A stretch of 64,000 nt of DNA, from contig CAXIUT010000064.1 of the NCBI GenBank assembly GCA_964035545.1, forward strand, positions 1 to 64,000. The letters are read 5' to 3'. A program made the translations under genes and the position numbers. The notes beneath the pieces are model-generated. The model saw nothing but the letters and a program-made list of their open reading frames with translations. It searched no databases and was not told where the DNA came from. Position 1 is the stretch's first letter. Every line of letters begins with the position of its first letter. The DNA is from Bugula neritina (lineage: Eukaryota > Bryozoa > Gymnolaemata > Cheilostomatida > Bugulidae). Below, piece by piece: positions 1 to 56,229 of the stretch.

Positions 1-3000
1 TATACGTTTAACTAACGTATACTTTAAGCCAAGACTATACTCATAAATTTAATTATGATATTATACGTTTAACTAACGTATACTTTAAGCCAAGAACATA
101 CTCATAAATTTAATTAATATATTATACGTTTAACTAACGTATACTTTAAGCCAAGACTATACTCATAAATTTAATTATGATATTATACGTTTAACTAACG
201 TATACTTTAAGCCAAGAACATACTCATAAATTTAATTAATATATTATACGTTTAACTAACGTATACTTTAAGCCAAGAACATACTCATAAATTTAATTAA
301 TATATTATACGTTTAACTAACGTATACTTTAAGCCAAGACTATACTCATAAATTTAATTATGATATTATACGTTTAACTAACGTATACTTTAAGCCAAGA
401 CTATACTCATAAATTTAATTATGATATTATACGTTTAACTAACGTATACTTTAAGCCAAGAACATACTCATAAATTTAATTAATATATTATACGTTTAAC
501 TAACGTATACTTTAAGCCAAGACTATACTCATAAATTTAATTATGATATTATACGTTTAACTAACGTATACTTTAAGCCAAGAACATACTCATAAATTTA
601 ATTAATATATTATACGTTTAACTAACGTATACTTTAAGCCAAGAACATACTCATAAATTTAATTAATATATTATACGTTTAACTAACGTATACTTTAAGC
701 CAAGACTATACTCATAAATTTAATTATGATATTATACGTTTAACTAACGTATACTTTAAGCCAAGACTATACTCATAAATTTAATTATGATATTATACGT
801 TTAACTAACGTATACTTTAAGCCAAGAACATACTCATAAATTTAATTAATATATTATACGTTTAACTAACGTATACTTTAAGCCAAGAACATACTCATAA
901 ATTTAATTAATATATTATACGTTTAACTAACGTATACTTTAAGCCAAGAACATACTCATAAATTTAATTAATATATTATACGTTTAACTAACGTATACTT
1001 TAAGCCAAGACTATACTCATAAATTTAATTATGATATTATACGTTTAACTAACGTATACTTTAAGCCAAGAACATACTCATAAATTTAATTAATATATTA
1101 TACGTTTAACTAACGTATACTTTAAGCCAAGAACATACTCATAAATTTAATTAATATATTATACGTTTAACTAACGTATACTTTAAGCCAAGACTATACT
1201 CATAAATTTAATTATGATATTATACGTTTAACTAACGTATACTTTAAGCCAAGAACATACTCATAAATTTAATTAATATATTATACGTTTAACTAACGTA
1301 TACTTTAAGCCAAGAACATACTCATAAATTTAATTAATATATTATACGTTTAACTAACGTATACTTTAAGCCAAGACTATACTCATAAATTTAATTATGA
1401 TATTATACGTTTAACTAACGTATACTTTAAGCCAAGACTATACTCATAAATTTAATTATGATATTATACGTTTAACTAACGTATACTTTAAGCCAAGAAC
1501 ATACTCATAAATTTAATTAATATATTATACGTTTAACTAACGTATACTTTAAGCCAAGACTATACTCATAAATTTAATTATGATATTATACGTTTAATTA
1601 ACGTATACTTTAAGCCAAGACTATACTCATAAATTTAATTATGATATTATACGTTTAACTAACGTATACTTTAAGCCAAGAACATACTCATAAATTTAAT
1701 TAATATATTATACGTTTAACTAACGTATACTTTAAGCCAAGACTATACTCATAAATTTAATTATGATATTATACGTTTAACTAACGTATACTTTAAGCCA
1801 AGAACATACTCATAAATTTAATTAATATATTATACGTTTAACTAACGTATACTTTAAGCCAAGACTATACTCATAAATTTAATTATGATATTATACGTTT
1901 AATTAACGTATACTTTAAGCCAAGACTATACTCATAAATTTAATTATGATATTATACGTTTAACTAACGTATACTTTAAGCCAAGACTATACTCATAAAT
2001 TTAATTATGATATTATACGTTTAACTAACGTATACTTTAAGCCAAGAACATACTCATAAATTTAATTAATATATTATACGTTTAACTAACGTATACTTTA
2101 AGCCAAGACTATACTCATAAATTTAATTATGATATTATACGTTTAATTAACGTATACTTTAAGCCAAGACTATACTCATAAATTTAATTATGATATTATA
2201 CGTTTAACTAACGTATACTTTAAGCCAAGAACATACTCATAAATTTAATTAATATATTATACGTTTAATTAACGTATACTTTAAGCCAAGACTATACTCA
2301 TAAATTTAATTATGATATTATACGTTTAACTAACGTATACTTTAAGCCAAGACTATACTCATAAATTTAATTAATATATTATACGTTTAACTAACGTATA
2401 CTTTAAGCCAAGAACATACTCATAAATTTAATTAATATATTATACGTTTAACTAACGTATACTTTAAGCCAAGACTATACTCATAAATTTAATTATGATA
2501 TTATACGTTTAACTAACGTATACTTTAAGCCAAGACTATACTCATAAATTTAATTATGATATTATACGTTTAACTAACGTATACTTTAAGCCAAGAACAT
2601 ACTCATAAATTTAATTAATATATTATACGTTTAACTAACGTATACTTTAAGCCAAGACTATACTCATAAATTTAATTATGATATTATACGTTTAATTAAC
2701 GTATACTTTAAGCCAAGACTATACTCATAAATTTAATTATGATATTATACGTTTAACTAACGTATACTTTAAGCCAAGAACATACTCATAAATTTAATTA
2801 ATATATTATACGTTTAATTAACGTATACTTTAAGCCAAGACTATACTCATAAATTTAATTATGATATTATACGTTTAACTAACGTATACTTTAAGCCAAG
2901 ACTATACTCATAAATTTAATTAATATATTATACGTTTAACTAACGTATACTTTAAGCCAAGAACATACTCATAAATTTAATTAATATATTATACGTTTAA

Positions 3001-5124
3001 CTAACGTATACTTTAAGCCAAGACTATACTCATAAATTTAATTATGATATTATACGTTTAACTAACGTATACTTTAAGCCAAGACTATACTCATAAATTT
3101 AATTATGATATTATACGTTTAACTAACGTATACTTTAAGCCAAGAACATACTCATAAATTTAATTAATATATTATACGTTTAACTAACGTATACTTTAAG
3201 CCAAGACTATACTCATAAATTTAATTATGATATTATACGTTTAATTAATGTATACTTTAAGCCAAGACTATACTCATAAATTTAATTATGATATTATACG
3301 TTTAACTAACGTATACTTTAAGCCAAGAACATACTCATAAATTTAATTAATATATTATACGTTTAACTAACGTATACTTTAAGCCAAGACTATACTCATA
3401 AATTTAATTATGATATTATACGTTTAACTAACGTATACTTTAAGCCAAGACTATACTCATAAATTTAATTATGATATTATACGTTTAACTAACGTATACT
3501 TTAAGCCAAGAACATACTCATAAATTTAATTAATATATTATACGTTTAACTAACGTATACTTTAAGCCAAGACTATACTCATAAATTTAATTATGATATT
3601 ATACGTTTAATTAACGTATACTTTAAGCCAAGACTATACTCATAAATTTAATTATGATATTATACGTTTAACTAACGTATACTTTAAGCCAAGAACATAC
3701 TCATAAATTTAATTAATATATTATACGTTTAACTAACGTATACTTTAAGCCAAGACTATACTCATAAATTTAATTATGATATTATACGTTTAATTAATGT
3801 ATACTTTAAGCCAAGACTATACTCATAAATTTAATTATGATATTATACGTTTAACTAACGTATACTTTAAGCCAAGAACATACTCATAAATTTAATTAAT
3901 ATATTATACGTTTAACTAACGTATACTTTAAGCCAAGACTATACTCATAAATTTAATTATGATATTATACGTTTAACTAACGTATACTTTAAGCCAAGAA
4001 CATACTCATAAATTTAATTAATATATTATACGTTTAACTAACGTATACTTTAAGCCAAGAACATACTCATAAATTTAATTAATATATTATACGTTTAACT
4101 AACGTATACTTTAAGCCAAGACTATACTCATAAATTTAATTATGATATTATACGTTTAACTAACGTATACTTTAAGCCAAGACTATACTCATAAATTTAA
4201 TTATGATATTATACGTTTAACTAACGTATACTTTAAGCCAAGACTATACTCATAAATTTAATTATGATATTATACGTTTAACTAACGTATACTTTAAGCC
4301 AAGACTATACTCATAAATTTAATTATGATATTATACGTTTAACTAACGTATACTTTAAGCCAAGAACATACTCATAAATTTAATTAATATATTATACGTT
4401 TAACTAACGTATACTTTAAGCCAAGACTATACTCATAAATTTAATTATGATATTATACGTTTAATTAACGTATACTTTAAGCCAAGACTATACTCATAAA
4501 TTTAATTATGATATTATACGTTTAACTAACGTATACTTTAAGCCAAGAACATACTCATAAATTTAATTAATATATTATACGTTTAACTAACGTATACTTT
4601 AAGCCAAGACTATACTCATAAATTTAATTATGATATTATACGTTTAACTAACGTATACTTTAAGCCAAGACTATACTCATAAATTTAATTATGATATTAT
4701 ACGTTTAACTAACGTATACTTTAAGCCAAGAACATACTCATAAATTTAATTAATATATTATACGTTTAACTAACGTATACTTTAAGCCAAGACTATACTC
4801 ATAAATTTAATTATGATATTATACGTTTAACTAACGTATACTTTAAGCCAAGAACATACTCATAAATTTAATTAATATATTATACGTTTAACTAACGTAT
4901 ACTTTAAGCCAAGACTATACTCATAAATTTAATTATGATATTATACGTTTAATTAACGTATACTTTAAGCCAAGACTATACTCATAAATTTAATTATGAT
5001 ATTATACGTTTAACTAACGTATACTTTAAGCCAAGAACATACTCATAAATTTAATTAATATATTATACGTTTAACTAACGTATACTTTAAGCCAAGAACA
5101 TACTTATTAATTTAATTACCAATC
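1..5124 (-). repeat. Terminal 61-bp tandem array (about 84 units) derived from SSU rRNA 5' end
   Basis: The same 61-bp unit repeats without a single indel: the C of the 'tatacg' element falls at 5+61n up to 5068, giving 84 units. Two main versions alternate irregularly (gactat...tatgatat and gaacat...taatatat), with point variants (tttaattaacg, ttaattaatg). Read on the minus strand, each unit contains ATGAGT, TTGGCTTA and TAGTTAAA in the same order and spacing as the start of the SSU rRNA gene at 56.10-56.16 kb. It sits at the window edge and borders unique sequence at about 5125, so it is probably the chromosome-terminal (telomere-like) array. Whether base 1 is the physical end cannot be seen. 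Confidence 0.9.
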
Positions 5125-5244
5125 TTATATATATATATATACACGATTAAGTAACGAAAAAAAAATTTAATACTTCAAAACTTATATTTTAAAATCAAAT
5201 GTTACTAGTTTACTTCCTAATTAGTTAATATAAAAAAAATTTTT

Positions 5245-6090
5245 TACTTATTTGCAATAAAAACATAAATAATTCTATCAATATCAATATAAACATAATA
5301 TGGCTCTACACCATATATATGTGAATATAATGCTTCTGGATAAAAATCTATGGCCTTTATAAATTTAAAAACTAATATATTCTTTATTTCTCAAAGTGTA
5401 AATTGATATTTATATCAAACATAGAAAAATATATCAATATTTTTAAGAATACAAATTATTACCATTGCTATTAATCCCAACAATACTGACATAAATACAT
5501 AATATAATTTGTTTTATAATGAATAACCGGGAAACACTTTATTATTTTGTGTTTTTTTAATAAACATTTTTTACATCTTCCGCAAACTATGATTACTTCG
5601 TAAATCACTTTTTGTTTCTTCTATATTTTCTTTAAGCATAATTATCAATATGTAATATGTAATAGTGTTTTTTTAGTTTATTTATCTTATTATCAATACT
5701 ATTTTTTATTTTGTTTATGTAGTCTATAAATCTGTTTTTTAATACGCTACTTTATTGTTTTAACCTACATATCTCCTCCTTAAAACTAGTTTTTAATATA
5801 TTTTTCAACTCATTAAAATCTTTTTTGTCTCATCTGTATATTTTATATAGCTATCTTTAAGTATACTACAATGCTTTTTTTAACTTATTTATATTTTTCT
5901 TAAAAATATTTTTCAGTTTACTAAAGCCTTCTTTTATCTTGTATGTAGACTTTTTAAATTTGTTATTTATATTATTTTTTAAACTATTCTTTAATATACT
6001 ATACTCTTTTCTAATTAAACTTAAAATGACTATCCAATTTTGTTTTAACACATTATAATATGTTTTTAATTTGTTTATTATTTTTAAAAT
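5245..6090 (-). pseudogene. Decayed copy of orf281 (GYP-family membrane protein)
   Basis: This is the left-hand copy of the intact 281-aa ORF at 16823-17668. The first part still reads (61 codons, 5866-6051), but an extra C next to a T-run near 5874 shifts the frame. A T-run near 5831-5836 is one base shorter than in the intact copy, an insertion near 5650 adds bases, and the GTG start is lost. The C-terminal membrane region is still recognisable at the DNA level. It is flanked by the 61-bp array downstream and by the tRNA-like copy upstream. Confidence 0.8.
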
Positions 6091-6123
6091 ATATACTTTA
6101 ACCCTTTTTATGAATGGGATGGG

Positions 6124-6194
6124 TAGGAGAAATAGGATTTGAACCTATAATAACAGTCTTAAAACTGTAGTTTTTCCCTTTAAACTATTCTCCT
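6124..6194 (-). tRNA. tRNA-Trp-like copy, anticodon loop abnormal
   Basis: A full cloverleaf can be drawn: acceptor AGGAGAA/TTCTCCT, D-stem GTTT/AAAC, T-arm ATAGG-TTCAAAT-CCTAT. The anticodon stem is ACAGT/ACTGT, identical to that of the real trnW at 44309, but the loop between is only six bases (TTTAAG) where trnW has CTTCAAA. It is therefore a paralogue of trnW whose decoding capacity is unclear; UAA or UUA could be presented. It may be a pseudo-tRNA or a processing punctuation mark. An almost identical copy is at 17696-17766. Confidence 0.6.
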
Positions 6195-6811
6195 TTAAAC
6201 ATACATATATATATACATATTGATAATAAAAGAATTATAATAATTGTTACAAATAAAAAATTTATTTATTACTAATAACTGCAGATTATAATAGTATTTA
6301 CTTAAAAATTAAGTTAATAATATAATTTTTAATTTAATAACTGTTTTTTCTTCTTTTTATAATATGATTTAAAAATGATAAAAACTCAGTATACCTATAG
6401 ATATAACAATTAAAATTATATAAAAAAAACCTATTTATTAGTGTTATTATGCGTATATATGTGTATATATGTATATATACGTATATTGATAATACAGTAA
6501 ACAATGATCATAGTTTTATATAGGATTTTCTTCAACTACTCAATACTAACAGTTTTTAACTTATTTATTATTTTAAAATAATATTTTTAAATTTTTTATT
6601 TAGTTTTTTTAATAATAATATATATACATATAACTGGATATAGTTATAAATATTAAAATTTTGTATAATCTTTTATTAAATTTATTTAAAGATATACTAA
6701 AATTATTGGTAAAAAAATATTAATTAATTAATTAATATTTAATAATTAATTTCTATATAATACACTTAAAATTTTCTTAATAATATAGATATAAGGTACA
6801 TTAATTATTAA
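6195..6811. other. Gene-free AT-rich spacer
   Basis: No ORF of note. The first about 260 bp match the spacer upstream of the second tRNA-like copy (17767-18035). The stretch from about 6500 to 6720 is a diverged match to the about 400-bp spacer that follows each orf163 copy (for example 11040-11250), indicating that the same downstream flank travels with members of the GYP family. Confidence 0.6.
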
Positions 6812-7744: not shown

Positions 7745-8290
7745 TACTAATTTTTTTTTTATTTTTCTGTTTATTATAACTAATAAAATATTAAGTTATA
7801 GCATATTTTTACTCGTAAAAAAAAAAAAAATTATTTAATAGAATTTTTTTTTTACTTTTCTGTTATTATATATAATAAAACATTAAGTTATAACATATTT
7901 TTACTTGTAAAAAAAAAAAATTATTTAGTAGAAATTTTTTTTTTCTGTTTATTATATATAATAAAACATTAAGTTACAACATATTTTTACTTGTAAAAAA
8001 AAAAAATTATTTAATAGAATTTTTTTTTTCTGTTTATTATATATAATAAAACATTAAGTTATATTATATTTTTACTCGTAAAAAAAAAAAAATTATTTAG
8101 TAGAAATTTTTTTTTTTCTGTTTATTATATATAATAAAACATTAAGTTATAACATATTTTTACTTGTAAAAAAAAAAATTATTTAGTAGAATTTTTTTTT
8201 TCTGTTTATTATATATAATAAAACATTAAGTTATATCATATTTTTACTTGTAAAAAAAAAAATTATTTAGTAGAAATTTTTTTATTTTTT
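7745..8290. repeat. R2 repeat array (about 85-bp unit), left locus
   Basis: About six to seven units, each with cattaagtta, then a small perfect hairpin (tttttac-tt-gtaaaaa), an A-run, ttattta and a T-run. The element cattaagtt starts at about 7967, 8052, 8140 and 8224, a spacing of 84-88 bp. The same family is present at 20.5-21.0 kb and 56.2-57.3 kb. Function unknown. Confidence 0.85.
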
Positions 8291-8404
8291 TTATTTCTAA
8301 ATAAATGAAGTACTTGTATACTGTATATTTACTAATATAAGTATAAATACATCTATATTGATACTTATAAATATACTTATATATATATCTATTTATTAAT
8401 TATT

Positions 8405-10071: not shown

Positions 10072-10653
10072 TTAAAATCACCATCCAAATATTTGTCAAA
10101 AAATAGAGCTCTTTATTTTTTCTTCTAATTTCCTCTTATCTTTCTCAAATTCAGTTGGGAAAAGATAAATACTTAAACATACTGAATATATATATGTTAT
10201 AAGAAACATAAACAATATTACTAATAATAGTAAAAACAGATTCATAAGTCAAAATAACATTCGACTTAATAGTGGATAGCCAATAAAGATTTCTCCTGTT
10301 TCTATTTTTCTAACAATTTTTCTTCGTATATCTCTTAAACTTCAATCATTATTTCAATCATCCACTAATTCTAAAATAAAATTTTTCAACATACCACCCA
10401 ATATATGTTTATGTCTCTTTAGTTTATTTATGTCTTTTTTAAGAACATCTTTTAATAAACTAAGATCCCTTTCTGTTTCATTTACATATTTTAAAAGTTT
10501 ATCTTCTAACTTATCATCTCATCTTTTATGTTTTTTTTTTATAATAGATTGACGGGAAAGTCTTTGGGGTTTATTTATAAAGCTATTAAAATGAGTTTTC
10601 ACTCATCTATAAAATCTAAATACTATTTTAATAAATTTTGTTATTAATTTCAT
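10072..10653 (-). CDS. orf193, GYP-family membrane protein
   Basis: 193 codons, ATG (10653) to TAA (10072-10074), with six or more TGA-encoded Trp. The N-terminus (KIVFRFYRWVK) is shared with orf163. Then follow a basic/charged middle (about residues 30-115, rich in K, R, D, E and probably helical), IFIGYPLLSRM at residues 122-132 (GYP motif, with I in place of the first P), and one or two membrane spans at about 133-165. A charged tail ends in a Trp-rich FWQIFGWWF. Function unknown. Upstream is a truncated copy of the small ORF that precedes each orf163. Confidence 0.72.
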
Positions 10654-10714
10654 TTATATATTATAAACATACACATAAACTATATATACTTATGTATATA
10701 CATATACATTAAAA

Positions 10715-10822
10715 TTATAAAACTATAAGCACGGTATTTAAGTTTACTATTTTAGGAGATATAGCAGCATTAACTAATTTATGAACATAAAATTTTAATA
10801 TATTCAACATAATTCTTATCAC
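10715..10822 (-). pseudogene. Truncated copy of small cassette ORF (orf69-like)
   Basis: It begins GTG-ATA-AGA like orf69 at 15804 and keeps about 35 codons of homologous sequence (ILKFYVHKLVNAAISPK against ILKIYIRKLIDTVISPK), then stops at TAA before the membrane segment. It shows that orf193 once had the same two-gene arrangement as the orf163 cassettes. Confidence 0.55.
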
Positions 10823-11347
10823 TTCATATTAAAAAAATTAAAATTAAAAAGTAAATTATATTTGTATGTGTATGTTATATTTACTATATTTATTAAAAAT
10901 CATAATATAATTATTTTTTATATAATATAGTTAAAAATTAATACGCTTATGAACACTGTTATTAAAACTATATAGAATTACGTCTATTTATGTCAATACA
11001 TATATATATATATATATGTATTAATAGTGTAATTAATAAACTAGTTATAGTTTTATATAAAGTTCTTATTAATCTATTTATTACTTTAAAATAATATTTT
11101 TTTAATTTTTACTAAATTATTTTAGCATATAATGTCTAAGTATAGTTATGAAAACGAAATTTTTTGTGTCAATGTTATTAAACTTATTTAAAAAATATAG
11201 TATAATTATTAATAGTAGTAAAAAATCTAACGTTAAATGATTAAAGGTGTATTAATATTTTTATTTAAAACTAATTTTCAAAAAAAGGATTTTATTTTTT
11301 TTTTATATATATTTTCTGTTTTATAGCAGATACTATACAATTTTCTA

Positions 11348-11839
11348 TTAAAAAAACTTATCATAAAAGATTGATAATAGTCACAGAATGTTTCTAGTAA
11401 TTTTTGCAAAAACTCATGGTGCATAAAACAATCATCATAATATTAACATTATTATCAATATTCTCGTTAATAACTGTATAAATTTCGCAAATCAATATAA
11501 TATCTGACTTAATATAGGATAACCGGGAAATACTTCATAATTCTCTATTTTTTTAAAGATTTTTTCCCACGTATCTATTCAGTTTCATCTACTATATAAA
11601 TTGCATTTTATTTCTCAAATAAACTTCCGCCACATACTCCCCATAATAGACTTATGTTTATCTATTTCAGTTATATACGCTAAGAGTTTTTCCTCTAATA
11701 TGTCCTCCTCTGTTTTGTCCTTTTTTTTAAGTACACGGACAGAACTTCCAATAAAATTATTATCAGGTTTATTAAATAAAGATTTTACTCATCTATAAAA
11801 CCTAAATACTAGTTTAATTAAATTTTTTATTATAGCCAC
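11348..11839 (-). CDS. orf163 copy 1, GYP-family membrane protein
   Basis: 163 codons from GTG (11839), directly after an in-frame TAA, to TAA (11348-11350), with 14 TGA-encoded Trp or similar. N-terminal KNLIKLVFRFYRWVKSLF; basic/acidic middle (KKKDKTEEDILEEKL) ending in a Trp-rich stretch; EVFPGYPILSQ at residues 102-112; then two hydrophobic segments (about 113-127 and 128-156). This looks like a soluble helical N-domain anchored by C-terminal membrane helices. Function unknown. The plus-strand ORF in the same place is a shadow. Confidence 0.72.
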
Positions 11840-11895
11840 TTAACAAATTATAAATATATATTAAAATTCTATAAACTTTTATATAAATCATATTT

Positions 11896-12060
11896 TTATA
11901 CATGTATATGTATATATATTAAAATTTTACATATTATTAATAATATAATTATTGTAAATACACAGGGAAAGTTATTTAAATTTATTATTTTAAGAAATAT
12001 AAAGCTATTGATTAATTTATAACTGTTAATTTTTAATATATTAAATTTTTTTACTATCAG
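11896..12060 (-). CDS. Small cassette ORF, copy 1 (54 codons, no standard start)
   Basis: Open frame homologous to orf69 (ILKINSYKLINSFIFLKIIN, then a hydrophobic TIIILLIICKILIYI), but beginning at CTG where orf69 has GTG, and ending earlier at TAA 11896-11898. The frame is preserved, yet the start is weakened. It may be translated from CTG or be decaying. It lies 57 bp upstream of orf163 copy 1. Confidence 0.4.
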   Translation of the reverse strand: MIVKKFNILKINSYKLINSFIFLKIINLNNFPCVFTIIILLIICKILIYIHIHV

Positions 12061-12243
12061 TTAATATTAAAAAAAAAAACTAAAATTCAAAAGTAAGTTG
12101 TAGTTATATATATATATATATAACACCTTTATTGTATTTATTAAAAATCATAATATAATTATTTTTTATATAATATAGTTAAAAATTAATACGCTTATGA
12201 ACACTGTTATTAAAACTATATAGAATTACGTCTATTTATGTCA

Positions 12244-12279
<36 letters not shown>

Positions 12280-12605
12280 TAATAGTGTAATTAATAAACT
12301 AGTTATAGTTTTATATAAAGTTCTTATTAATCTATTTATTACTTTAAAATAATATTTTTTTAATTTTTACTAAATTATTTTAGCATATAATGTCTAAATA
12401 TAGTTATGAAAACAAAACTTTTTGTGTCAATGTTATTAAACTTATTTAAAAAATATAGTATAATTATTAATAGTAGTAAAAAATCTAACGTTAAATGATT
12501 AAAAGTGTATTAATATTTTTATTTAAAACTAATTTTCAAAAAAAAAGAATTTTATTTTTTTTATATATATTTTCTGTTTTATAGCAGATACTATACAATT
12601 TTCTA

Positions 12606-13097
12606 TTAAAAAAACTTATCATAAAAGATTGATAATAGTCACAGAATGTTTCTAGTAATTTTTGCAAAAACTCATGGTGCATAAAACAATCATCATAATA
12701 TTAACATTATTATCAATATTCTCGTTAATAACTGTATAAATTTCGCAAATCAATATAATATCTGACTTAATATAGGATAACCGGGAAATACTTCATAATT
12801 CTCTATTTTTTTAAAGATTTTTTCCCACGTATCTATTCAGTTTCATCTACTATATAAATTGCATTTTATTTCTCAAATAAACTTCCGCCACATACTCCCC
12901 ATAATAGACTTATGTTTGTCCATTTCAGTTATATACGCTAAGAGTTTTTCCTCTAATATGTCCTCCTCTGTTTTGTCCTTTTTTTTAAGTACACGGACAG
13001 AACTTCCAATAAAATTATTATCAGGTTTATTAAATAAAGATTTTACTCATCTATAAAACCTAAATACTAGTTTAATTAAATTCTTTATTATAGCCAC
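12606..13097 (-). CDS. orf163 copy 2, GYP-family membrane protein
   Basis: Same length (163 codons), start (TAA-GTG) and stop context as copy 1. One visible substitution is in the IDKHKS region (plus-strand tgtttgtcc against tgtttatct). The GYP motif and C-terminal membrane segments are unchanged. The intact frame in all four copies argues for selection or very recent duplication. Confidence 0.72.
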
Positions 13098-13153
13098 TTA
13101 ACAAATTATAAATATATATTAAAATTCTATAAACTTTTATATAAATCATATTT

Positions 13154-13318
13154 TTATACATGTATATGTATATATATTAAAATTTTGCATATTATTAATA
13201 ATATAATTATTGTAAATACACAGGGAAAGTTGTTTAAATTTATTATTTTAAGAAATATAAAGCTATTGATTAATTTATAATTGTTAATTTTTAATATATT
13301 AAATTTTTTTACTATCAG
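13154..13318 (-). CDS. Small cassette ORF, copy 2 (54 codons, CTG start)
   Basis: Same 165-bp frame as at 11896-12060, with CTG in the start position and TAA at 13154-13156. One membrane segment is predicted. Expression is uncertain because the start codon is unconventional. Confidence 0.38.
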   Translation of the reverse strand: MIVKKFNILKINNYKLINSFIFLKIINLNNFPCVFTIIILLIICKILIYIHIHV

Positions 13319-13858
13319 TTAATATTAAAAAAAAAAACTAAAATTCAAAAGTAAGTTGTAGTTATATATATATATATAACACCTTTATTGTATTTATTAA
13401 AAATCATAATATAATTATTTTTTATATAATATAGTTAAAAATTAATACGCTTATGAACACTGTTATTAAAACTATATAGAATTACGTCTATTTATGTCAA
13501 TACATATATATATATATATGTATATATATATATTAATAGTATAATTAATAAACTAGTTATAGTTTTATATAAAGTTCTTATTAATCTATTTATTACTTTA
13601 AAATAATATTTTTTTAATTTTTACTAAATTATTTTAGCATATAATGTCTAAATATAGTTATGAAAACAAAACTTTTTGTGTCAATGTTATTAAACTTATT
13701 TAAAAAATATAGTATAATTATTAATAGTAGTAAAAAATCTAACGTTAAATGATTAAAAGTGTATTAATATTTTTATTTAAAACTAATTTTCAAAAAAAAG
13801 GATTTTATTTTTTATATATATATTTTCTGTTTTATAGCAGATACTATACAATTTTATA

Positions 13859-14350
13859 TTAAAAAAACTTATCATAAAAGATTGATAATAGTCACAGAAT
13901 GTTTCTAGTAATTTTTGCAAAAACTCATGGTGCATAAAACAATCATCATAATATTAACATTATTATCAATATTCTCGTTAATAACTGTATAAATTTCGCA
14001 AATCAATATAATATCTGACTTAATATGGGATAACCGGGAAATACTTCATAATTCTCTATTTTTTTAAAGATTTTTTCCCACGTATCTATTCAGTTTCATC
14101 TACTATATAAATTGCATTTTATTTCTCAAATAAACTTCCGCCACATACTCCCCATAATAGACTTATGTTTGTCCATTTCAGTTATATACGCTAAGAGTTT
14201 TTCCTCTAATATGTCCTCCTCTGTTTTGTCCTTTTTTTTAAGTACACGGACAGAACTTCCAATAAAATTATTATCAGGTTTATTAAATAAAGATTTTACT
14301 CATCTATAAAACCTAAATACTAGTTTAATTAAATTCTTTATTATAGCCAC
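13859..14350 (-). CDS. orf163 copy 3, GYP-family membrane protein
   Basis: 163 codons, TAA-GTG start (14350), TAA stop (13859-13861). Nearly identical to copies 1 and 2, including the FPGYP motif and the Trp-rich segment before it. Confidence 0.72.
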
Positions 14351-14406
14351 TTAACAAATTATAAATATATATTAAAATTCTATAAACTTTTATATAAATC
14401 ATATTT

Positions 14407-14571
14407 TTATACATGTATATGTATATATATTAAAATTTTGCATATTATTAATAATATAATTATTGTAAATACATAGGGAAAGTTGTCTAAATTTATTATT
14501 TTAAGAAATATAAAGCTATTGATTAATTTATAATTGTTAATTTTTAATATATTAAATTTTTTTACTATCAG
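14407..14571 (-). CDS. Small cassette ORF, copy 3 (54 codons, CTG start)
   Basis: Third copy of the 165-bp frame (CTG at 14571, TAA at 14407-14409), with the same uncertainty about its start as copies 1 and 2. Confidence 0.38.
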   Translation of the reverse strand: MIVKKFNILKINNYKLINSFIFLKIINLDNFPYVFTIIILLIICKILIYIHIHV

Positions 14572-15102
14572 TTAATATTAAAAAAAAAAACTAAAATTCA
14601 AAAGTAAGTTGTAGTTATATATATATATATATAACATCTTTACTGTATTTATTAAAAATCATAATATAATTATTTTTTATATAATATAGTTAAAAATTAA
14701 TACGCTTATGAACACTGTTATTAAAACTATATAAAATTACGTCTATTTATGTCAATACATATATATATATATATATATTAATAGTGTAATTAATAAACTA
14801 GTTATAGTTTTTTATAAAGTTCTTATTAGTCTATTTATTACTTTAAAATAATATTTTTTTAATTTTTACTAAATTATTTTAGCATATAATGTCTAAATAT
14901 AGTTATGAAAACAAAATTTTTTGTGTCAATGTTATTAAACTTATTTAAAAAATATAGTATAATTATTAATAGTAGTAAAAAATCTAATGTTAAATGATTA
15001 AAAGTGTATTAATATTTTTATTTAAAACTAATTTTCAAAAAAGGGATTTTATTTTTTTTATATATATTTTCTGTTTTATAACAGATACTATACAATTTTC
15101 TA

Positions 15103-15594
15103 TTAAAAAAACTTATCATAAAAGATTGATAATAGTCACAGAATGTTTCTAGTAATTTTTGCAAAAACTCATGGTGCATAAAACAATCATCATAATATTA
15201 ACATTATTATCAATATTCTCGTTAATAACTGTATAAATTTCGCAAATCAATATAATATCTGACTTAATATAGGATAACCGGGAAATACTTCATAATTCTC
15301 TATTTTTTTAAAGATTTTTTCCCACGTATCTATTCAGTTTCATCTACTATATAAATTGCATTTTATTTCTCAAATAAACTTCCGCCACATACTCCCCATA
15401 ATAGACTTATGTTTATCCATTTCAGTTATATACGCTAAGAGTTTTTCCTCTAATATGTCCTCCTCTGTTTTGTCCTTTTTTTTAAGTACACGGACAGAAC
15501 TTCCAATAAAATTATTATCAGGTTTATTAAATAAAGATTTTACTCATCTATAAAACCTAAATACTAGTTTAATTAAATTTTTTATTATATTCAA
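15103..15594 (-). CDS. orf163 copy 4, GYP-family membrane protein
   Basis: 163 codons with the same body and stop as copies 1-3, but with a different 5' junction. The start is TTG (15594), immediately after the TAA that ends orf69, and residues 1-2 change. The start region (TTAATTGAATATAATAAAA) is the same as that of nad5 over about 19 bases. This is the copy at the promoter-proximal end of the array and the only one with an intact, GTG-started small ORF directly upstream. Confidence 0.72.
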
Positions 15595-15804
15595 TTAAAA
15601 ACATACGAAGAAAAATCAAAATTGTGCATATATTATCATAAAACATATCTTTGCTATATACATTAAAATTTTATATATTATTAATAATATAATTATTGCA
15701 AATATATAGGGAAAGGCGTCTAGGTTTGTTACTTTAGGGGATATAACAGTATCGATTAATTTACGAATGTAAATTTTTAATACATTAAATTTTTCTCTTA
15801 TCAC
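15595..15804 (-). CDS. orf69, small membrane protein of the cassette
   Basis: 69 codons from GTG (15804), directly after TAA in the motif TTAAGTGATAAGAG, to TAA (15595-15597), which abuts the orf163 copy 4 start. A basic amphipathic N-terminus (REKFNVLKIYIRKLI) is followed by one membrane span (IFAIIILLIIYKILMYIA). The start motif is identical to that of orf108 (27335) and close to that of nad3. Function unknown; the stop/start contact with orf163 implies translational coupling. Confidence 0.55.
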
Positions 15805-15879
15805 TTAATATAAAAAAAAACTAAAATTAAAAAGTAAATTATAGCTGTATACAGTTTAATATGTATATATATATATAGA

Positions 15880-16695
15880 CACATTAAAATAGCTAATTTT
15901 AGTTTTAATATATACCCAATCTTACCCATAAAACGTAAACCTAAAAAATTTTTAAATTATTAAATATATATATATATAATTAATAACTTAATTAGCATTA
16001 GTTTATTATCTTTTTATATAAATAGTTTTTAGAAATTTTATAAAAAAAATTTCATTTAAAATCACTTTAAAAATTAAAATTTTATAAACGTTATTATATC
16101 TAATAAATAGAGTAAATATTAAAAAATTTTTTATAATAATTAACAAAAATAAATACAAAAAATTTAATAACATTTACCTAAGACAACAATTAGATAAAGA
16201 TATTAATTTATATTTTATTTATTTGTCTCCATAAAGTAGCATACGTATATTAGTATTACTGTTAATACCGTACTGATATACAGATTAGTTCAAAATTAAT
16301 TAATACAATTAAAATACTATTATTAAATGCAGTAAAATTAATATTAAGAATAAATCTTTTGTCTGTATACCTCCCTTAACATAGTTAAATTTACCAATAC
16401 TTATAACACGAATATACACATAACTTTCATGTGTACATTTTCTACATTAAAAATTTTTTAAATCTATTAAAAGTATTTAACTTTAAGAATCCTATTTTAC
16501 TAAACTTACTCACCATGACGCTATTTTATTTATTTTTTAAATTTTTAATTTAAAAAATAATTTCATTCAACTTGCATGTGTTATACATTTAACTAACGTT
16601 CACTCTAAGCTAAGACCACACTCATAACTTTAATTAAGATATTATACGTTTAACTAGTGTTCACTCTAAGCCAAGACCGCACTCATAATTTTAAT
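15880..16695 (-). pseudogene. SSU rRNA 5' fragment, second copy
   Basis: Nearly identical to 55295-56155, the 5' part of the SSU gene. It includes the AACACATGCAAGT element, the GTGAGTAAG element and the GGTAAGATTGGGTATAT stretch, but it lacks everything downstream (no 530 loop, no 1400 region). It is therefore a truncated gene copy and not a functional SSU, unless used as a separate 5' rRNA piece. At its 5' end it carries two units of the 61-bp terminal repeat. Confidence 0.88.
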
Positions 16696-16700
16696 TACTA
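16578..16700 (-). repeat. Two-unit internal array of the 61-bp telomere-type repeat
   Basis: Two units with the C of the atac element at 16586 and 16647, exactly 61 bp apart, both with cactctaagc-aagacc, which is closer to the SSU gene sequence than the terminal array is. It is followed by the same subtelomeric sequence (attac-aatcttatat) that follows the terminal array at 5120. Confidence 0.88.
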
Positions 16701-16822
16701 ATCTTATATATGTATATATACGATTAAGTAACGGGGGAAATTTTTAATACTTCAAAACTTATATTTTAAAATCAAATGTTACTAGTTTACTTCCTAATTA
16801 GTTAATATAAAAAAAAAATTTT

Positions 16823-17668
16823 TTACTTACTTGCAAGAAAAACATTAATAATTCAATCAATATCAATATAAACATAATAAGGCTCTACACCATATATATG
16901 TGGATATAACGCTTCTGGATAAAAAGCTATGGCCTTTATAAATTTAAAAACTAATATATTCTTTATTTCTACAAGTGTAAATTGACATTTATATCAAACA
17001 TAGAAAAATATACCAATATCTTCAAGAATACGCATTATTACCACTGCTATTAATCCCAACAATACTGACACAAATACATAGTATAATTTGTTTAATAATG
17101 GATAACCAGGAAACACTTTATTATCTTCTGTTTTTTTAATAAATATTTTTCACGTCTTCCGCAAACTACGATTACTTCGTAAATCACTTTTTGTTTCTTC
17201 TATATTTTTTTTAAGCATAATGATCAATATGTAATAATGTTCTTTTAATTTATTTATCTTATTATCAATACTATTTTTTATTTTGTTTATGTAGTCTATA
17301 AATCGGTTTTTTAATACGCTACTTTGTTGTTTTAACCTATATATCTCCTGCTTAAGACTAGTCTTTAATATATTTTTCAACTCGTTTAAATCTTTTTTTG
17401 TCTCATCTGTATATTTTATATAACTATCTTTAAGTATACTACAATGTTTTTTTAACTTATTTATCTTTTTCTTAAAAATATTCTTCAGTTTACTAAAGCC
17501 TTCTTTTATCTTGTTTGTAGACTTTTTAAACTTGTTATTTATATTACTTTTAAAACTATTCTGTAATATACTATACTCTTTTCTAATTAAACTTAAAATT
17601 CGTATACAATTTTGTTTTAACATATTATAATATGTTTTTAATTTATTTATTATTTTAAAAATATACAC
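16823..17668 (-). CDS. orf281, GYP-family coiled-coil membrane protein
   Basis: 281 codons from GTG (17668) to TAA (16823-16825), reading TGA as Trp at 17150, 16994 and 16853. About residues 1-172 form a long, lysine-rich coiled coil with repeated LK..F...I.KIK.....L heptad-like units (KFKKST, KIKEGFSKLKN, NKLKKHCSILKD, and so on). Then KVFPGYPLLNKL at residues 184-195, a strong membrane span (VFVSVLLGLIAVVIM), and a C-terminal domain ending in an acidic/tyrosine-rich EPYYVYIDIDW and a short hydrophobic tail. This is the longest member of the family. It is immediately downstream of a tRNA-like copy, and a decayed sister copy is at 5245-6090. Confidence 0.7.
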
Positions 17669-17695
17669 TTTAACCCTTTTTATGAATGGGATAGG

Positions 17696-17766
17696 TAGGA
17701 GAAATAGGATTTGAACCTATAATAACAGTCTTAAAACTGTAGTTTTTCCCTTTAAACTATTCTCCC
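17696..17766 (-). tRNA. tRNA-Trp-like copy 2, anticodon loop abnormal
   Basis: Same structure as the copy at 6124 (acceptor GGGAGAA/TTCTCCT, T-arm ATAGG/CCTAT, anticodon stem ACAGT/ACTGT with a six-base loop TTTAAG). Conservation of the cloverleaf in both copies suggests it is retained, perhaps as an RNA-processing signal ahead of orf281. Confidence 0.6.
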
Positions 17767-18483
17767 TTAAACGTACATTTATATGTATATATACATATTA
17801 ATAATAAAAGAGTTATAATAATTGTTACAAATAAAAAATTTATTTATTACTAATAACTGTAAATTATAATAGTATTTACTTAAAAATTAAGTTAATAATA
17901 TAGTTTTTAATTTAATAACTATTTTTTCTTCTTTTTATAATGTAATTTAAAAGTGATAAAAACTTAGTATACCTATAGATATAATAATTAAAATTATATA
18001 AAAAAAAATATATTTATTAAAATTGTTATACGTATACATACATATATATATATAATCGTAACTTTTAAGGTTTTAAATATTTTTGTTAATACAGCTATTA
18101 CCAGTTATATATTGTTATTATATGTATGTATATATACATGTGTATATTTATAAATTTAAATAAATAAACATAACTAATCGTATTAAACCCATAATAGTTA
18201 TTATTACCATATGTATTAAAGGTCGTATAGTAATTATATATATATAAAAAATTTGCTGATAGATATCTAAAAATTATTCTAATATTTTTTAATTTATTAA
18301 TAAAACTATATATTTATTTTTTATAAATATATTTATTTAATGCATCTATAAAACATAAGTATAGTTAATTGTAAATATGTCTATAATTATTAAATTATTA
18401 CTTTTTTATTAAACTATATTTTATTTTAATTTAAAGTAAACTTTAAACAGTTAAATCGGATTAAAAAAAAATATTGATCTTGA
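17767..18483. other. Gene-free AT-rich spacer
   Basis: To about 18035 it repeats the spacer at 6195-6455, and about 18055-18130 repeats 7490-7570. The rest is TA-rich with no ORF worth calling. Confidence 0.55.
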
Positions 18484-18879: not shown

Positions 18880-19370
18880 TTTACTTATTAGTATATAATA
18901 GTGTTTTTTTTTAGTTTATTTATTTTTTGACTAATAACACTCTTTATTATACTTTTTAATTTACTAAATTCTCTTTACTTCGTTTATAATTTATAAACTT
19001 ATCTCTTAATATACTGTTTTAATTTTTTACAGTATTTATCACTTTTTCAGTGACGCTCTTTAAAATATCTTAGTTTATTAAGATCTCTTTTTATTTTATT
19101 TGTATACTATATAGTATAAATTCGTTTGTTAATGTATTAACATAATCCTTTAATTTACCTATATTTTTATAAGTTTATTAATTAATATCTAGTTAAATGT
19201 ATAATACATTAATTAAAATTATAAGTGTGGTCTCGGTCTAGAGTGAACACTAGTTAAATGTATTAATTAATACCTTTTTATTTTTTAAGTAAGTTTATAG
19301 TTCTTATATTACTTTACATTTAGTATATCATAATAACTTTTTAATTTATTTATTATTTTTAAAAAGTTTT
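18880..19370 (-). pseudogene. Heavily decayed third copy of orf281-like coiled-coil gene, interrupted
   Basis: The minus strand keeps the lysine/isoleucine heptad-like texture (tttatttattttttgact..., tttaatttacta..., a T-rich start matching the orf281 5' end near 19340-19370) but has many stops. It is interrupted at about 19185-19285 by an inverted SSU 5' fragment. Confidence 0.4.
19185..19285 (+). repeat. Inverted SSU 5'-end fragment
   Basis: Read on the plus strand, this has ATAAGTGTGGTCTCGGTCTA, then GAGTGAACACTAGTTAAATG, in SSU-sense order, i.e. the first about 50 nt of the SSU gene in reverse orientation to every other copy. The element ctagttaaatgtat is present on both sides of the core. 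Confidence 0.8.
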
Positions 19371-19739: not shown

Positions 19740-19802
19740 CAAATTTTCTCACGGTACTTCATTAAGAGTTGAGTCTTTTGTACTAAGTACATGAAGTTTA
19801 TC
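19740..19802. repeat. Copy of the cox2-leader hairpin
   Basis: ggtacttcattaagagttga ... acatgaagttta matches 51343-51391 just inside and upstream of cox2, with the inverted arms acttcat/atgaagt preserved. The surrounding sequence does not match. Confidence 0.7.
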
Positions 19803-20076: not shown

Positions 20077-20355
20077 TTAAATATAATAAATAAGTAATAT
20101 TTGAATTATTATTATAATAAAAAATTTTACTAATTCATTAAAATTTAAAGATGATATAGTTTTTGTATGTGCTGAAATATATTGTAAAAAGTTTTTAAAA
20201 AAAAAAAAACATTTTTCCGCTAAATATTTATCTATCAAATATATAAAATTATTACCCAATAGATTTTTATAAAAAAAAAAAAAAAAATTTTTAATAAAAT
20301 AATCTATAAATAATCCATTTTTAAAACTGTTTTGATTTTTTAAAAAAAATTTCAT
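20077..20355 (-). CDS. orf92, hypothetical
   Basis: 92 codons, ATG (20355) to TAA (20077-20079). Phe/Lys/Asn-rich with a C-terminal hydrophobic FFIIIIIQILLIYYI. It starts MKFFL like orf84 at 38822, which may be chance at this base composition. Unrecognised. A 3' fragment is duplicated at about 9905-10015. Confidence 0.4.
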   Translation of the reverse strand: MKFFLKNQNSFKNGLFIDYFIKNFFFFFYKNLLGNNFIYLIDKYLAEKCFFFFKNFLQYISAHTKTISSLNFNELVKFFIIIIIQILLIYYI

Positions 20356-20519
20356 TTAAATATTTATTAATAAAATTAATTTTATTTCTTTATTGTAAAT
20401 AAAAAATATTAACTATAAATATATTTATCAGTAAAAACTAAGAATTAAAAAAAAAATTTTTATCTACTGTAAGTAATTTGATATCAATTGAAGATACATT
20501 TTACTGTTAGGGGAAAAAA

Positions 20520-21015
20520 TTTACCAAATTTTTTTTTATAATTTTTTTTTGTATATTATAAGTAATAAAACATTAAGTTATAACATATTTTTACTTGTAA
20601 AAAAAAAAATTATTTAGTAGAATTTTTATAATTTTTTTTTATCTATTATTTATTATAAGCGATAAAATATTAAGTTATAATGTATTTTTTACTTTTCTGT
20701 TTATTATAGGTAATAAAACATTAAGTTATAACGTATTTTTACTTGTAAAAAAAAATTATTTAATAGAAATTTTTATAATTTTTTCTATCTATTATTTATT
20801 ATAAGTAATAAAATATTAAGTTATAATATGTTTTTACTAGTAAAAATAAAAAAAAAAAAGTTCTAACCAAGTTTTTTTTTATAATTTTTTTTTTTATTTA
20901 TTATAAGTATACTAATATTAAGTAGAAGTGTATTTTACTGTTAAAAAAAAAATTGGTAGAATTTTTTTATAAATTATAAGAGATATAGTATCAAGTAGAG
21001 ATATAGTTTTTTTTT
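20520..21015. repeat. R2 repeat array, middle locus
   Basis: About five units of the R2 family (aattaagttataa..., tttttacttgtaaaaa hairpin, ttatttagtaga, T-run), more diverged than at 7.7-8.3 kb. Confidence 0.8.
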
Positions 21016-51514: not shown

Positions 51515-54140
51515 AAATTCCCCATATTGGTTATATAATTAGGCGTAACTGATCAACATGCAATTTTTATACAATTGATTATAATTGGCCTATCGTCTCC
51601 GGTCCTCTCGTACTGAGATAATTATAATTTTTTTTTTTATTACGTACAGTAGATAGGGACCAAACTGTCTCACAACGTTTTGAACCCAGCTCACGTACCA
51701 TTTTATTTGACGAACAGTCAAACCCTTGGCAGCGTATGCTCCGCCAGGATATGATGAGCCGACATCGAGGTGCCAAACGATTTCTTCAATAGGAGCTCTC
51801 AAAAATCATTAGCCTGTTATCCCTAGCGTACCTTTTATTCGTTGATCGATTTTTTTAGCAATATAAAAAATCGGTTCAATATGACAGAGTTACCTCCTTA
51901 TATTACTAGTTAGTAATATAATCAGACTTATTTTGATCATTCATCTTTTTCTATATAATATATAGACTAAATCTTGTATTCACCTCCGTTACTTTTTAGG
52001 AGGTTGCCGCCCCAGCTAAACTGTCTTTCTAACAAAAAATAATACCATACAATTATTTTTAACTAACATATATAAAAAGTAGTTTTCCATTATTAAAAAA
52101 TTTACTACATATCTATATTTTATATACATTTAATTAATTATTAGATAACAGTAAAGGTGCATAGGGTCTCTCCGTCTAGCTGTACATTAACGCATCTTCA
52201 CGTTTAATTCAATTTCATAAAGTTAGTATTAGAGACAGTAGGGCAGTCGTTACACCATTCGTGCAGGACGGAACTTACCCGTCAAGGGATTTTGCTACCT
52301 TAGGACCGTTAGGATTACGGCCGCCGTTTATTGGGGCTTATACATAAACAGGATGTTTATGTTTTTTACCTTGCAACACTGGGCAGGTGTCAGACTTTAT
52401 ACTTCATAACTATACTTAGCAAAGTCTTATGTTTTTGTTAAACAGTCGCTACCCTCATTTATTATAACTATTTAGTTCTTTTTCTCCCGAAGTTACAAAG
52501 ATAATTTGCAGAGTTCCTTTAATACTATTATCTTTTATACCTTAGCTTACTCAGCTTATTAACTTGTGTTAGTATTAGTACAGTTTTTATTTTACAATTT
52601 TTTCTATATATTAAATTTATATGAATATATATATATATATATATACTTTAATATTTAATATAGTTTTTATAAAATTCATCACTTTTTTTTTTTTAAAAAA
52701 GTTTAGATACTGTATTACATGTAATAAATTTATTTTAATTACATAACCCTATAATATTAGGTATATATGTTTATACATATAATTATTACTCATATTAGCA
52801 TAATTAATCTTTATATTTCCAATTTTTTTTACAAAAAATCTTCTACAATATAAAAGACACTCCACTACCTAATGTGTAATTTCAATAAATAGTTTTTTAA
52901 CATTAATTTTAGAAAATTAAATATATGTTTATTAATTATATACAAAAAAAATATTTGATCTTTTACGATTTCTTAAAAGAATGGCTGATTCTAAGCCTAT
53001 CTCTATATTTAATATTTAGTAATTTTCTTAATATTAACTATTTTTTATTATTTTAATTTACACTCTGGGCTGTTTCCCTCTCGACATTTAATCTTTGCAC
53101 TAAATGTCTGTTTAAATATAAATATAGATACTAATTTATAAATTAATTTTCATTATCTCATTACCAAATATCTATATAATATTCACTTTACTTAAATAAA
53201 TTTCGTGGAGAACCAGCTATAACTAAGCTTGATAAGCCTTTCACCCCTAATAACAAATCATCTCAAAATTTTGCAACATTTACGAGTTCAGCCTAATGCT
53301 TGTTCATTATTAGATCGCTTAGTTTCGGGTCAAATACTATAAACTAAATTATTTTCACTATGCTTACGCTTGCTTATAGTATTTACTTGCTAATCCATTA
53401 TACAAAAGGTACAATAAAACATTCGCTTTATTTGATTTAATACATTAAAATTCAGTATTACTCATATTAATATGTTATTTCATCTATTTTTCGCAAAATA
53501 TAATCTATAAAACTTAAGTTTTTTAGCAGTTAATTTACTAAATTTTTATAGTTATATAGATTAATAAGTAAACTTAATAGGTATTAAAAATTTTAAAAAA
53601 TTTAAAATACACTAAAATATTAATATTACTTACTTAAATTTAATAGATTTAATTTTACTTAAATATATATATACAAAATTTAAATAAGTATATGATATTG
53701 TTTAATATATTAATACTATATACTTTTAAATCAATCTTAAAGATCTACTTTTTTACAAGACTTTCACTTTCTATGGTTTATTTTTTTCAAAATAATTATT
53801 AAAATTTTTTATTTTCTGCTAACTATTTTCGATCATCTCTACAATAGTTCTCAATTGAATTTTATAATTATATACTAAAATATTTTTCTTCTACAATATA
53901 ATCCTATTATTATTCATTAAAGACCAGGTCGTAATAATGATATATTCTTTATAAGAAAAATCTTTTACTCCATAGTTTTTAAATTATTCCTAATAATATA
54001 ACTTAAGTTTTAGACATCCTTCTAATGTAATTTTTTTAGCTAATTAATTCAATAAAAATATAAACTATATAAAAAATTTAATTTACCTACAGATTCATCT
54101 ACCAGTACCTTGTGTCAACTTAATTCAAATAACCTTTAAA
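51515..54140 (-). rRNA. rnl: Large subunit ribosomal RNA
   Basis: Recognised along its length on the minus strand: 5' region GGTACTGGTAGATG (near 54110); GACCCGAAACTAAGCGATCT ... GGGGTGAAAGGCTTATCAAG ... TAGCTGGTTCTCC (53330-53200); the peptidyl-transferase segments (GGACCGTTA/GACGGGTAAG complements near 52300); and the sarcin-ricin loop AGTACGAGAGGACCGG (51610). No fragmentation is visible, although domain I/II peripheral parts are very AT-rich. Ends are approximate. Confidence 0.93.
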
Positions 54141-54159
54141 CTAATCAAACTTTTTTTTT

Positions 54160-56155
54160 TTTTTTATCATAGTGACACTTAAAAATCTATTTATTTCATT
54201 GCAAGAAAAAAAAAAAGGTAAGCGTCTTTATTAATCTAAAAACGCTCCGAATGTGATGGGCGGTGTGTGCAAAACTATTGTATTAATTCGCCATAACATC
54301 GTTATTTATGGTTACTAACGATTTCAACTTCTTCACTTCTGTTTCAGAAATGATTCTGCACTTTGATAATTTTTTAAACTGTCTCTAAATTACTTTTTTG
54401 AATTTTTTTGTTTTTATCATTGTAATACGTGTGTAGCCCAATATACTTAGATCGTGAGGACTTGACTTCAATTTACTTTAAAAATACACTTTCATAGAGT
54501 TTGTATATCAATAACTAGTAAGATTACGTTCGTTATATAAACTTAATTATACACGTCAAAGCACGAACTGACGACAGCCATGCAGTACTATTTAAATATT
54601 AATTTAATTTTAATTTATTTAATTTATTATTATTACATATTGGTAAGATTTTACGTGGATTATCGCATTAAACCACATATTCCACCGTTCGATATAATTC
54701 CCGCCAATTCTGTTAGCTTTGAGATTTGCAACTGTACTCACCAGGTAGATTATTTTAACGTAAATTTTAATAATAATCAACATTCAGGGTAGAGATTACT
54801 AGGGTCTCTAATCCTATTCATTTCCTCTACTTTCGTGTTTTAGCGTCAGATAAAACCGGTAAAATTCATTAGAATAATGGCAAAATTATTTAAATAATAG
54901 CGTATTTTATCACTCTTTAAATAAGTTTTTTTACTTTTGTTTAATCTCAAAAATATTTTATATTACACATAATTTCAATTTATAAATCTAGTAGTATGTA
55001 TAATTTTATTTAGCCCACACACCTTTTACACCCAATCATGCTGAATAACGCTTGTTGCTCAGGTCTTACCGCGGCTGCTGGCACCTGTATTTGCCACAAC
55101 TTCTTTTTATGTTTAATATCATAATTTTTACATTTGGATAAACTTTACAACTTCTATAGTTTTCGTCGTTTCCGTTAAATTGATAGGTCATACTTTCGTA
55201 CATTGCCTAATATTCTTCACTGCTGCCGTATGGTGGGGTTGTTTTCATACCCCATGTGGATGATTCTTCTCTCAAATCAACTAAAGATTATAGGCATATT
55301 AAAACAGCTAATTTTAGTTTTAATATATACCTAATCTTACCCCATAAAACGTAAACCTAAAAATTTTTTAAATTATTAAGTATTTAAATATATATATACA
55401 ATTATATATATATATATATATACAATTAATAACTTAATTAGCATTAGTTTATTATTTTTTTATATAAATAGTTTTTAGAAATTTTATAAAAAAAAATTTT
55501 ATTTAAAATCACTTTAAAAATTAAAATTTTATAAAAATAATTTTACCTAAAATTACTTTAAAAAATTAAAATTTTATAAACTTTATTATATCTAATAAAT
55601 AAAGTAAAATAATAAAAAAATTTTTTATAATAATTAACAAAAATAAATACAAAAAATTTAATAACATTTTCCTAAGACAACAATTAAATAAAAATATTGG
55701 TTTATATTTTATTTATTTGCCTCCATAAAGTGGCATACGTATATTGGTATCGTTGTTAATACCGTACCAATATACAGATTAATTCAAAATTAATTAATAA
55801 TTTATTTTTCAAAAAAATTAATTAATACAATTAAAATACTATTGTTAATGTAGTAAATTTAATATTAAGAATAAATCTTTTGTCTGTATACCCCCTTAAC
55901 ATAGTTAAATTTACTAATACTTATAACACGAATATACACACAACTTTCATGTGTACATTTTCTACGTTAAAAATTTTTTAAATCTATTAAAAGTATTTAA
56001 CTTTCAGAATCCTATTTTACTAAGCTTACTCACCACGACGCTATTTTATTTATTTTTTAAATTTTTAATTTAAAAAATAATCCCATTCAACTTGCATGTG
56101 TTATACATTTAACTAGCGTTCACTCTAAGCCAAGATCACACTCATAAATTTAATT
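54160..56155 (-). rRNA. rns: Small subunit ribosomal RNA
   Basis: 5' end GTGTGATCTTGGCTTAGAGT with AACACATGCAAGTTGAATGG; GTGAGTAAG near 56030; CCATACGGCAGCAGTGAAGA near 55225; the 530 loop CCAGCAGCCGCGGTAAGACC (55075); and the decoding region GCACACACCGCCCATCACAT (54265). The 5' domain has long AT-rich expansions, giving about 2 kb. Unlike Tetrahymena there is no gene or obvious break splitting off a 5' fragment. The 3' end is approximate. Its first about 50 nt are the source of the 61-bp terminal repeat. Confidence 0.94.
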
Positions 56156-56229
56156 ACTAACCTTGATTCACAATATGTATATATATATATATATATATAA
56201 ATTTTAATTATTAAAACTTAACTAAAGAA

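Follow-up and report, generated by a model that had tools for sequence, protein, structure and literature searches.

The first 64,000 bases (hereafter, the window) of the 70,610-bp contig CAXIUT010000064.1, which belongs to a Bugula neritina assembly with a total length of 215.8 Mb, begin with a tandem array of 61-bp units at positions 1..5118. The unit is homologous to the 5' end, namely the first 56–61 bp, of the small subunit (SSU) rRNA gene of the same DNA. The array is probably the telomere at one end of a linear ciliate mitochondrial chromosome, with a unit that descended from the SSU 5' end via a duplicated copy of this region.

Structure of the terminal array and homology of its unit

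Tandem Repeats Finder (TRF) described the array as head-to-tail repeats with a period of 61, 83.9 copies and 95% matches. Cut every 61 bases, it yields 84 units of six types, represented by 36, 34, 9, 2, 2 and 1 units. The SSU-sense strand is the minus strand, and the units are directed toward the contig end. The earlier note had described an array of about 84 units of 61 bp at 1..5124; the array itself was recovered, but TRF ends it at 5118, slightly short of that position. The first base of the contig falls within the array, and from this start we infer that the array is the true molecular end.

The minus-strand unit aligned without gaps to positions 56101..56159 (minus strand), the 5' end of the full SSU rRNA gene and the single-copy homologue of the unit, with 51 of 59 bases identical and E values of 2.9e-15 in the window and 1.1e-11 in the assembly. 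A previous hand count of 45 of 53 bases against 56.10–56.16 kb is thereby confirmed as a gapless match. To gauge chance similarity, the unit was treated as circular and its best ungapped match over 59 bases was recorded, in the window and in 20 dinucleotide shuffles. The best score in the rest of the window was 51, falling to 38 after masking of the SSU gene, the region 15.85–18.06 kb and the site at 19.2 kb; the shuffles gave 36–39. Local alignment of the unit with the SSU 5' end scored 72, and the top of 200 unit shuffles was 29. Shuffled sequence, proposed in the earlier note as a control that could overturn the homology, falls short in both comparisons.

The body of the SSU rRNA gene was found by Rfam at 54071..55346 (minus strand), and by our own reading the 5' domain lies upstream of it, up to about position 56165, beyond an AT-rich interruption seen by eye at 55347–55900. 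The SSU rRNA is perhaps split into two pieces, an arrangement reported for Ichthyophthirius (PMC3341644; this and the other papers cited are represented here by excerpts). The assignment of the 56.1-kb locus to the SSU 5' end is borne out by two results. Compared with the first 62 consensus letters of RF00177 (bacterial SSU), the locus scored 39, against a maximum of 20 in the rest of the masked window and 19–25 in 10 letter shuffles. It can also pair with the SSU body at 55.05 kb in all 10 positions of SSU helix 3, compared with 3–4 of 10 after a one-base shift; helix 3 and its bulge at the SSU 5' end are placed here as we presume them to lie. The telomere unit retains 8 of the 10 helix 3 pairs. 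It has drifted away from rRNA function, and its homology passes through the genome's own SSU gene. The homology and the anatomy of the array are demonstrated, and an origin of the repeat in the SSU rRNA 5' end is supported by the 51/59 match, the shuffle controls and the intermediates described below.

Two side observations concern the surroundings of the rRNA genes. An AT-rich repeat family of the 86-bp type occurs upstream of the SSU gene (56260–57242) and in the left arm (7757–8295 and 20340–20975), where its sites fall outside the blocks bordering SSU-like units. A 48-bp piece at 19754–19801 is 92% identical to 51344–51390, just past the 3' end of the large subunit (LSU) rRNA gene, and may be a further left-arm fragment of rRNA-flanking sequence.

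Internal two-unit intermediate and subtelomeric blocks

A partial copy of the SSU gene, comprising the 5' domain and the first bases of the body, was found at 15874..16636 (minus strand), 83% identical, with gaps, to 55289–56156. Its alignment with the gene contains 8 mismatches and 1 gap in the 240 columns following the unit. An Rfam scan of this copy gave zero hits. At 16581..16697 (minus strand), TRF and alignment showed 1.9 tandem 61-bp units; one of these units continues into the SSU copy and the other into a copy of the block that adjoins the terminal array. An inverted remnant of about 1.2 units is located at 19189..19263 (plus strand), 85% identical to 16583–16657 over 75 bp with no gap. 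The array, the 16.6-kb locus and, in inverted orientation, the 19.2-kb remnant share one unit junction, which argues for a tandem duplication that took place once.

The subtelomeric block beside the array (5119..6475) is 92% identical to 16700–18054, and the homology of the two blocks stops near 18054. The internal block contains ORF281, an open reading frame (ORF) at 16823..17668 (minus strand). Its counterpart beside the array (5247..6096, minus strand) is decayed: tblastn and three-frame translation showed pieces in two frames and stops in all three minus frames. An intact internal ORF and a decayed counterpart beside the array would be expected if the terminal block were the derivative. 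Both blocks also carry a tRNA gene on the minus strand, at 6122..6194 beside the array and at 17694..17766 in the internal block. These near-identical genes resemble the UCA-anticodon tRNA gene at 44309–44379 (85% over 72 bases), with an anticodon loop of 6 bases, one base shorter.

Sites within the unit agree with the same direction. All 84 terminal units have G6, shared with one internal unit (I1), and A15, shared with the other (I2), while the gene has neither. Changes at sites 19, 20, 24 and 38 are present in 84 of 84 terminal units and in none of the gene, I1, I2 and the 19.2-kb remnant. Together, the site and ORF281 data favour the order from gene to two-unit copy to terminal array. Since the internal intermediate is joined both to the partial SSU copy and to the subtelomeric block, the duplicated SSU copy is a likelier parent of the array than the functional gene. 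The earlier note had suggested that the end of the rRNA gene was captured and amplified, possibly by strand invasion. The SSU gene end is indeed the source; direct capture from the functional gene, although possible, is not needed in view of the two-unit intermediate and the shared G6 and A15.

Growth of the array and proposed history

The order of unit types along the array has a period of 3, with a mean match of 0.534 at lags 3, 6 and 9; none of 10,000 shuffles was as high, also when the best of periods 1–8 was taken. A stretch of 12 units recurs (equal length in 6 of 1000 shuffles). The outermost 26 units belong to the two commonest types only, and the 13 units of types C, D and E are absent there (hypergeometric probability 0.005). 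The three-unit periodicity points to amplification of the recombination type. Such a pattern would result if the array grew several units at a time, through unequal crossing-over or copying from circles, but not if units were added one by one from a fixed template; the pattern does not separate crossing-over from circles.

The proposed history may be outlined in five steps. The SSU 5' region would have been duplicated elsewhere, beside a block with ORF281 and the tRNA gene, and the first 61 bp of the SSU copy would then have been tandemly duplicated once, giving the unit junction; the products of these two steps are directly visible at 15.87–18.05 kb. A copy of the block would have turned into the chromosome end, and whatever of the SSU copy lay on the outward side of the tandem pair would have been lost. 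The pair could then have grown to about 84 units in multi-unit steps by recombination, either through unequal crossing-over or through rolling-circle copying of telomeric circles, which would also homogenise the units and offset end loss. Freed of rRNA constraint, the units would have changed together and gained a hairpin. We infer the order of the first three steps and the involvement of recombination from the intermediates and the unit-type pattern.

Hairpin in the terminal units

The terminal units contain an inverted repeat of 8 + 5 + 8 bases, located at 1..21 in the first unit. It is perfect in 82 of 84 units and has a single G–T pair in the other two. Of the eight pairs, the SSU gene has four, and the internal units have four and five. 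The commonest unit, folded as single-stranded DNA, reaches −7.2 kcal/mol (z −4.1); the values for the gene and both internal units lie between −0.1 and −0.7 kcal/mol (z about +0.9). In the second commonest type, this hairpin is the sole structure formed (−5.1 kcal/mol, z −2.2). In simulations starting from the gene, 8 random substitutions produced an arm of 8 in 0.06–0.1% of 20,000 trials, and with 13 substitutions 34 and 14 of 3000 sequences were as stable as the commonest unit.

The hairpin could also have arisen by chance in this AT-rich DNA: a perfect arm of at least 8 is present in 54 of 865 other 61-mers, and equally stable folds in 29 of 865. The 19.2-kb remnant, which is without the terminal hairpin, also folds, with a different 6-bp hairpin of its own across its junction. 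When at least 2 G/C per arm are required, perfect arms of at least 8 are found in 2 of the 865 other 61-mers. Because ordinary 61-mers reach such arms and stability, the gain of the hairpin by the terminal units, after its absence from the gene and the internal units, is graded as suggestive. The first base of the hairpin is base 1 of the contig, a 1-in-61 coincidence noticed afterwards. The hairpin may have a role in end protection or priming.

Alternative explanations

Several points weigh against parts of this reading: the true terminus, the SSU identity of the 5' locus, the homology of the unit, or the descent from the duplicated SSU copy. The terminus rests on a contig start within the array, and an assembly contig may simply stop in a repeat; the right end carries unrelated repeats. 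Rfam applied to 55300–56300 alone gave no SSU hit, although this test is silent on the SSU 5' region, missing both the internal copy at 15.8–16.7 kb and, when scanned by itself, the genuine 5' domain. In the region preceding the SSU leader, homology is limited to TA runs (20 and 4 of 1000 shuffles did as well), and the claim that an SSU promoter is kept at the array boundary was dropped, the match being one TA run. The unit alone scored 18 against the universal SSU consensus, within the background, as would be expected if an AT-rich repeat resembled the SSU 5' end by chance or convergence. Such a coincidence is extremely improbable in view of the 51/59 match (36–39 in shuffles), the alignment score of 72 (no more than 29 in 200 shuffles) and the intermediates found at 16.6 kb and 19.2 kb. 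It is unlikely that the array is an internal satellite where the assembly stopped, in a molecule that is circular or longer, and hence no telomere. Both contig ends do lie in repeats, but these repeats differ from each other, and published accounts describe ciliate mitochondrial DNAs as linear for the most part, or in every sequenced case, and as frequently carrying arrays of this kind (PMC10878089, PMC7961746, PMC3341644). The location of 39 of 41 ORFs on the minus strand suits a linear map as well, with no proof concerning the ends.

The opposite order of events, in which strand invasion of the functional gene directly produced the array, first in an SSU-like form, and later recombination of an end with the SSU gene left the chimera at 15.87–18.05 kb, is possible, though we hold it to be doubtful. 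The internal locus is the expected trace of an end that invaded the SSU gene and copied about 0.8 kb. The two blocks differ by 8%, and over much of its extent fewer mismatches separate the SSU copy from the gene (for instance, the 8 in 240 columns); a single event followed by free divergence fits poorly with these values unless gene conversion or rRNA constraint intervened. However, both internal units hold the rRNA state at sites 19, 20, 24 and 38, altered in every terminal unit, and ORF281 is intact inside and broken at the end, so that this order fits only if the event preceded the divergence of the array. A linear mitochondrial plasmid, or a mobile element, that had acquired the SSU 5' end appears quite improbable as the source of the end; 16.58–19.26 kb would in that case be an integrated copy with inverted telomere-like units at its borders. 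Unit remnants of opposite orientation do border this segment, and an Oxytricha mitochondrial plasmid was reported to share chromosome telomeres, a mobile-element origin being proposed for ciliate mitochondrial telomeres (PMC7961746). However, the homology of the blocks ends near 18054, short of the inverted unit at 19.2 kb, and no plasmid gene was recognised, the remaining segment not having been searched gene by gene. Polymerases are typical genes of linear mitochondrial plasmids. For ORF281, no homologues were found at E 0.001 among 4020 candidates, and no Pfam families above the cut-off, which leaves its candidacy as a plasmid gene unsupported. Descent of the terminal array from the duplicated SSU copy is the explanation that we consider probable.

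Opposite end of the contig

At the opposite end, 76–77-bp repeats unrelated to the 61-bp unit are arranged in alternately inverted blocks from 60225 to the end of the window at 64000 and on to 70610. A search of the assembly with three units missed the 19.2-kb remnant, and absences from that search are weak; the right end was therefore examined directly. The two commonest units matched the last 10,610 bases at best in 36 of 59 positions without gaps, which is the shuffle level. The telomere is not common to both ends, and the same sequence inverted at both ends, as in Hydra, was not found. The repeat-rich right end of about 10 kb might be where replication starts, might fold back on itself, or might reflect how such reads were assembled. 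Paramecium has been described with a telomere on one side and a repeat-rich, fold-back terminus on the other (PMC7961746), which this contig recalls by analogy only.

Identity and gene content of the contig

Genes for COX1, COX2, cytochrome b, nad subunits and ribosomal proteins were found on the contig, read with the table 4 code. The closest PDB neighbours of COX1 were 7w5z (E 4e-225) and 8b6h (E 3e-224), which we take to be Tetrahymena structures, and the third-best had an E value of 8e-97. COX1 had 7332 relatives at E 0.001 (7996 candidates scored), and zero confirmed relatives were obtained for COX1 and nad7 as queries against viral_contigs. The contig is taken as a ciliate mitochondrial chromosome; the earlier identification of ciliate mitochondrial DNA agrees with the gene set and with the nearest COX1 structures. 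The assembly also has contigs of up to about 34 Mb, so the ciliate could be an associate of some other organism.

The count of ORFs given above refers to those of at least 100 aa, and their bias toward the minus strand suits a linear map read one way, saying nothing on the ends. The region 10472–15851 consists of four tandem copies of about 1.25 kb with one 163-aa ORF apiece, in each of which 9 codons (TGA) are read differently from table 11; no Pfam match was present in the two copies scanned. Adjoining 1-kb segments at 32575–34450 are about 73% identical, a possible duplication.

Comparison with known mitochondrial telomeres

Ciliate mitochondrial telomere units differ even among close species, and the source of new units is unsettled. 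Here, the donor gene, a two-unit intermediate and a full array are present on one chromosome, and the birth of a telomere sequence becomes readable stepwise. If the proposed history is true, the telomere was born without a foreign element. A broader possibility, which we regard as rather speculative, is that a gene close by can supply the material for a chromosome end: tandem duplication at the start of a duplicated rRNA gene would seed the telomere, telomere selection would add a hairpin, and the array would perhaps be transcribed as telomeric RNA, since rRNA transcription is directed outward. The unrelated mitochondrial telomeres of ciliates would then be independent local captures by terminal amplification and not borrowed plasmid ends.

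Seven published units of six species, compared with the SSU and LSU genes of this genome and not with their own rRNA genes, gave no clear match; the best, the 37-bp unit of T. pigmentosa, was equalled by 1 of 200 shuffles in one of 21 tests. The longest perfect arms of the published units are 2–5 bp, compared with 8 in the unit of this array. At the mitochondrial ends of Chlamydomonas reinhardtii, the terminal sequence recurs beside an rRNA region as an 86-bp internal repeat near an rRNA module, which is not a tandem array. The module L2b of this species was reclassified as intergenic (PMC2412866). In the open literature, with most subscription papers outside it, no mitochondrial telomere unit derived from rRNA was found; this is not proof, and it is in line with the earlier note, which knew of no such telomere.

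Among linear mitochondrial chromosomes, that of Hydra resembles the present case in having a mitochondrial gene fragment, partial cox1, at its ends (PMC2518934), but there the fragment is part of inverted terminal repeats, while here rRNA sequence forms a tandem array. In Candida parapsilosis, a tandem array is kept by recombination involving telomeric circles (t-circles) (PMC5176325), and the origin of its unit is not stated in the text examined. In Tetrahymena, Ichthyophthirius and some spirotrichs, rRNA genes are duplicated near the termini (PMC7961746, PMC3341644); LSU genes lie in the terminal regions, and the excerpts do not state that the telomere unit derives from them. The telomere units of ciliates measure 31–64 bp in Tetrahymena, 225 bp in Ichthyophthirius and 32–142 bp in Colpoda, and the two ends bear different repeats in some Tetrahymena, as on this contig (PMC3341644, PMC1919467, PMC7961746, PMC10878089). 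The array described here is similar to these telomeres in the size class of its unit and in being a head-to-tail array with a species-specific unit that probably ends an AT-rich linear mitochondrial DNA, and differs from them in that the origin of its unit is traced to a gene of the same genome.

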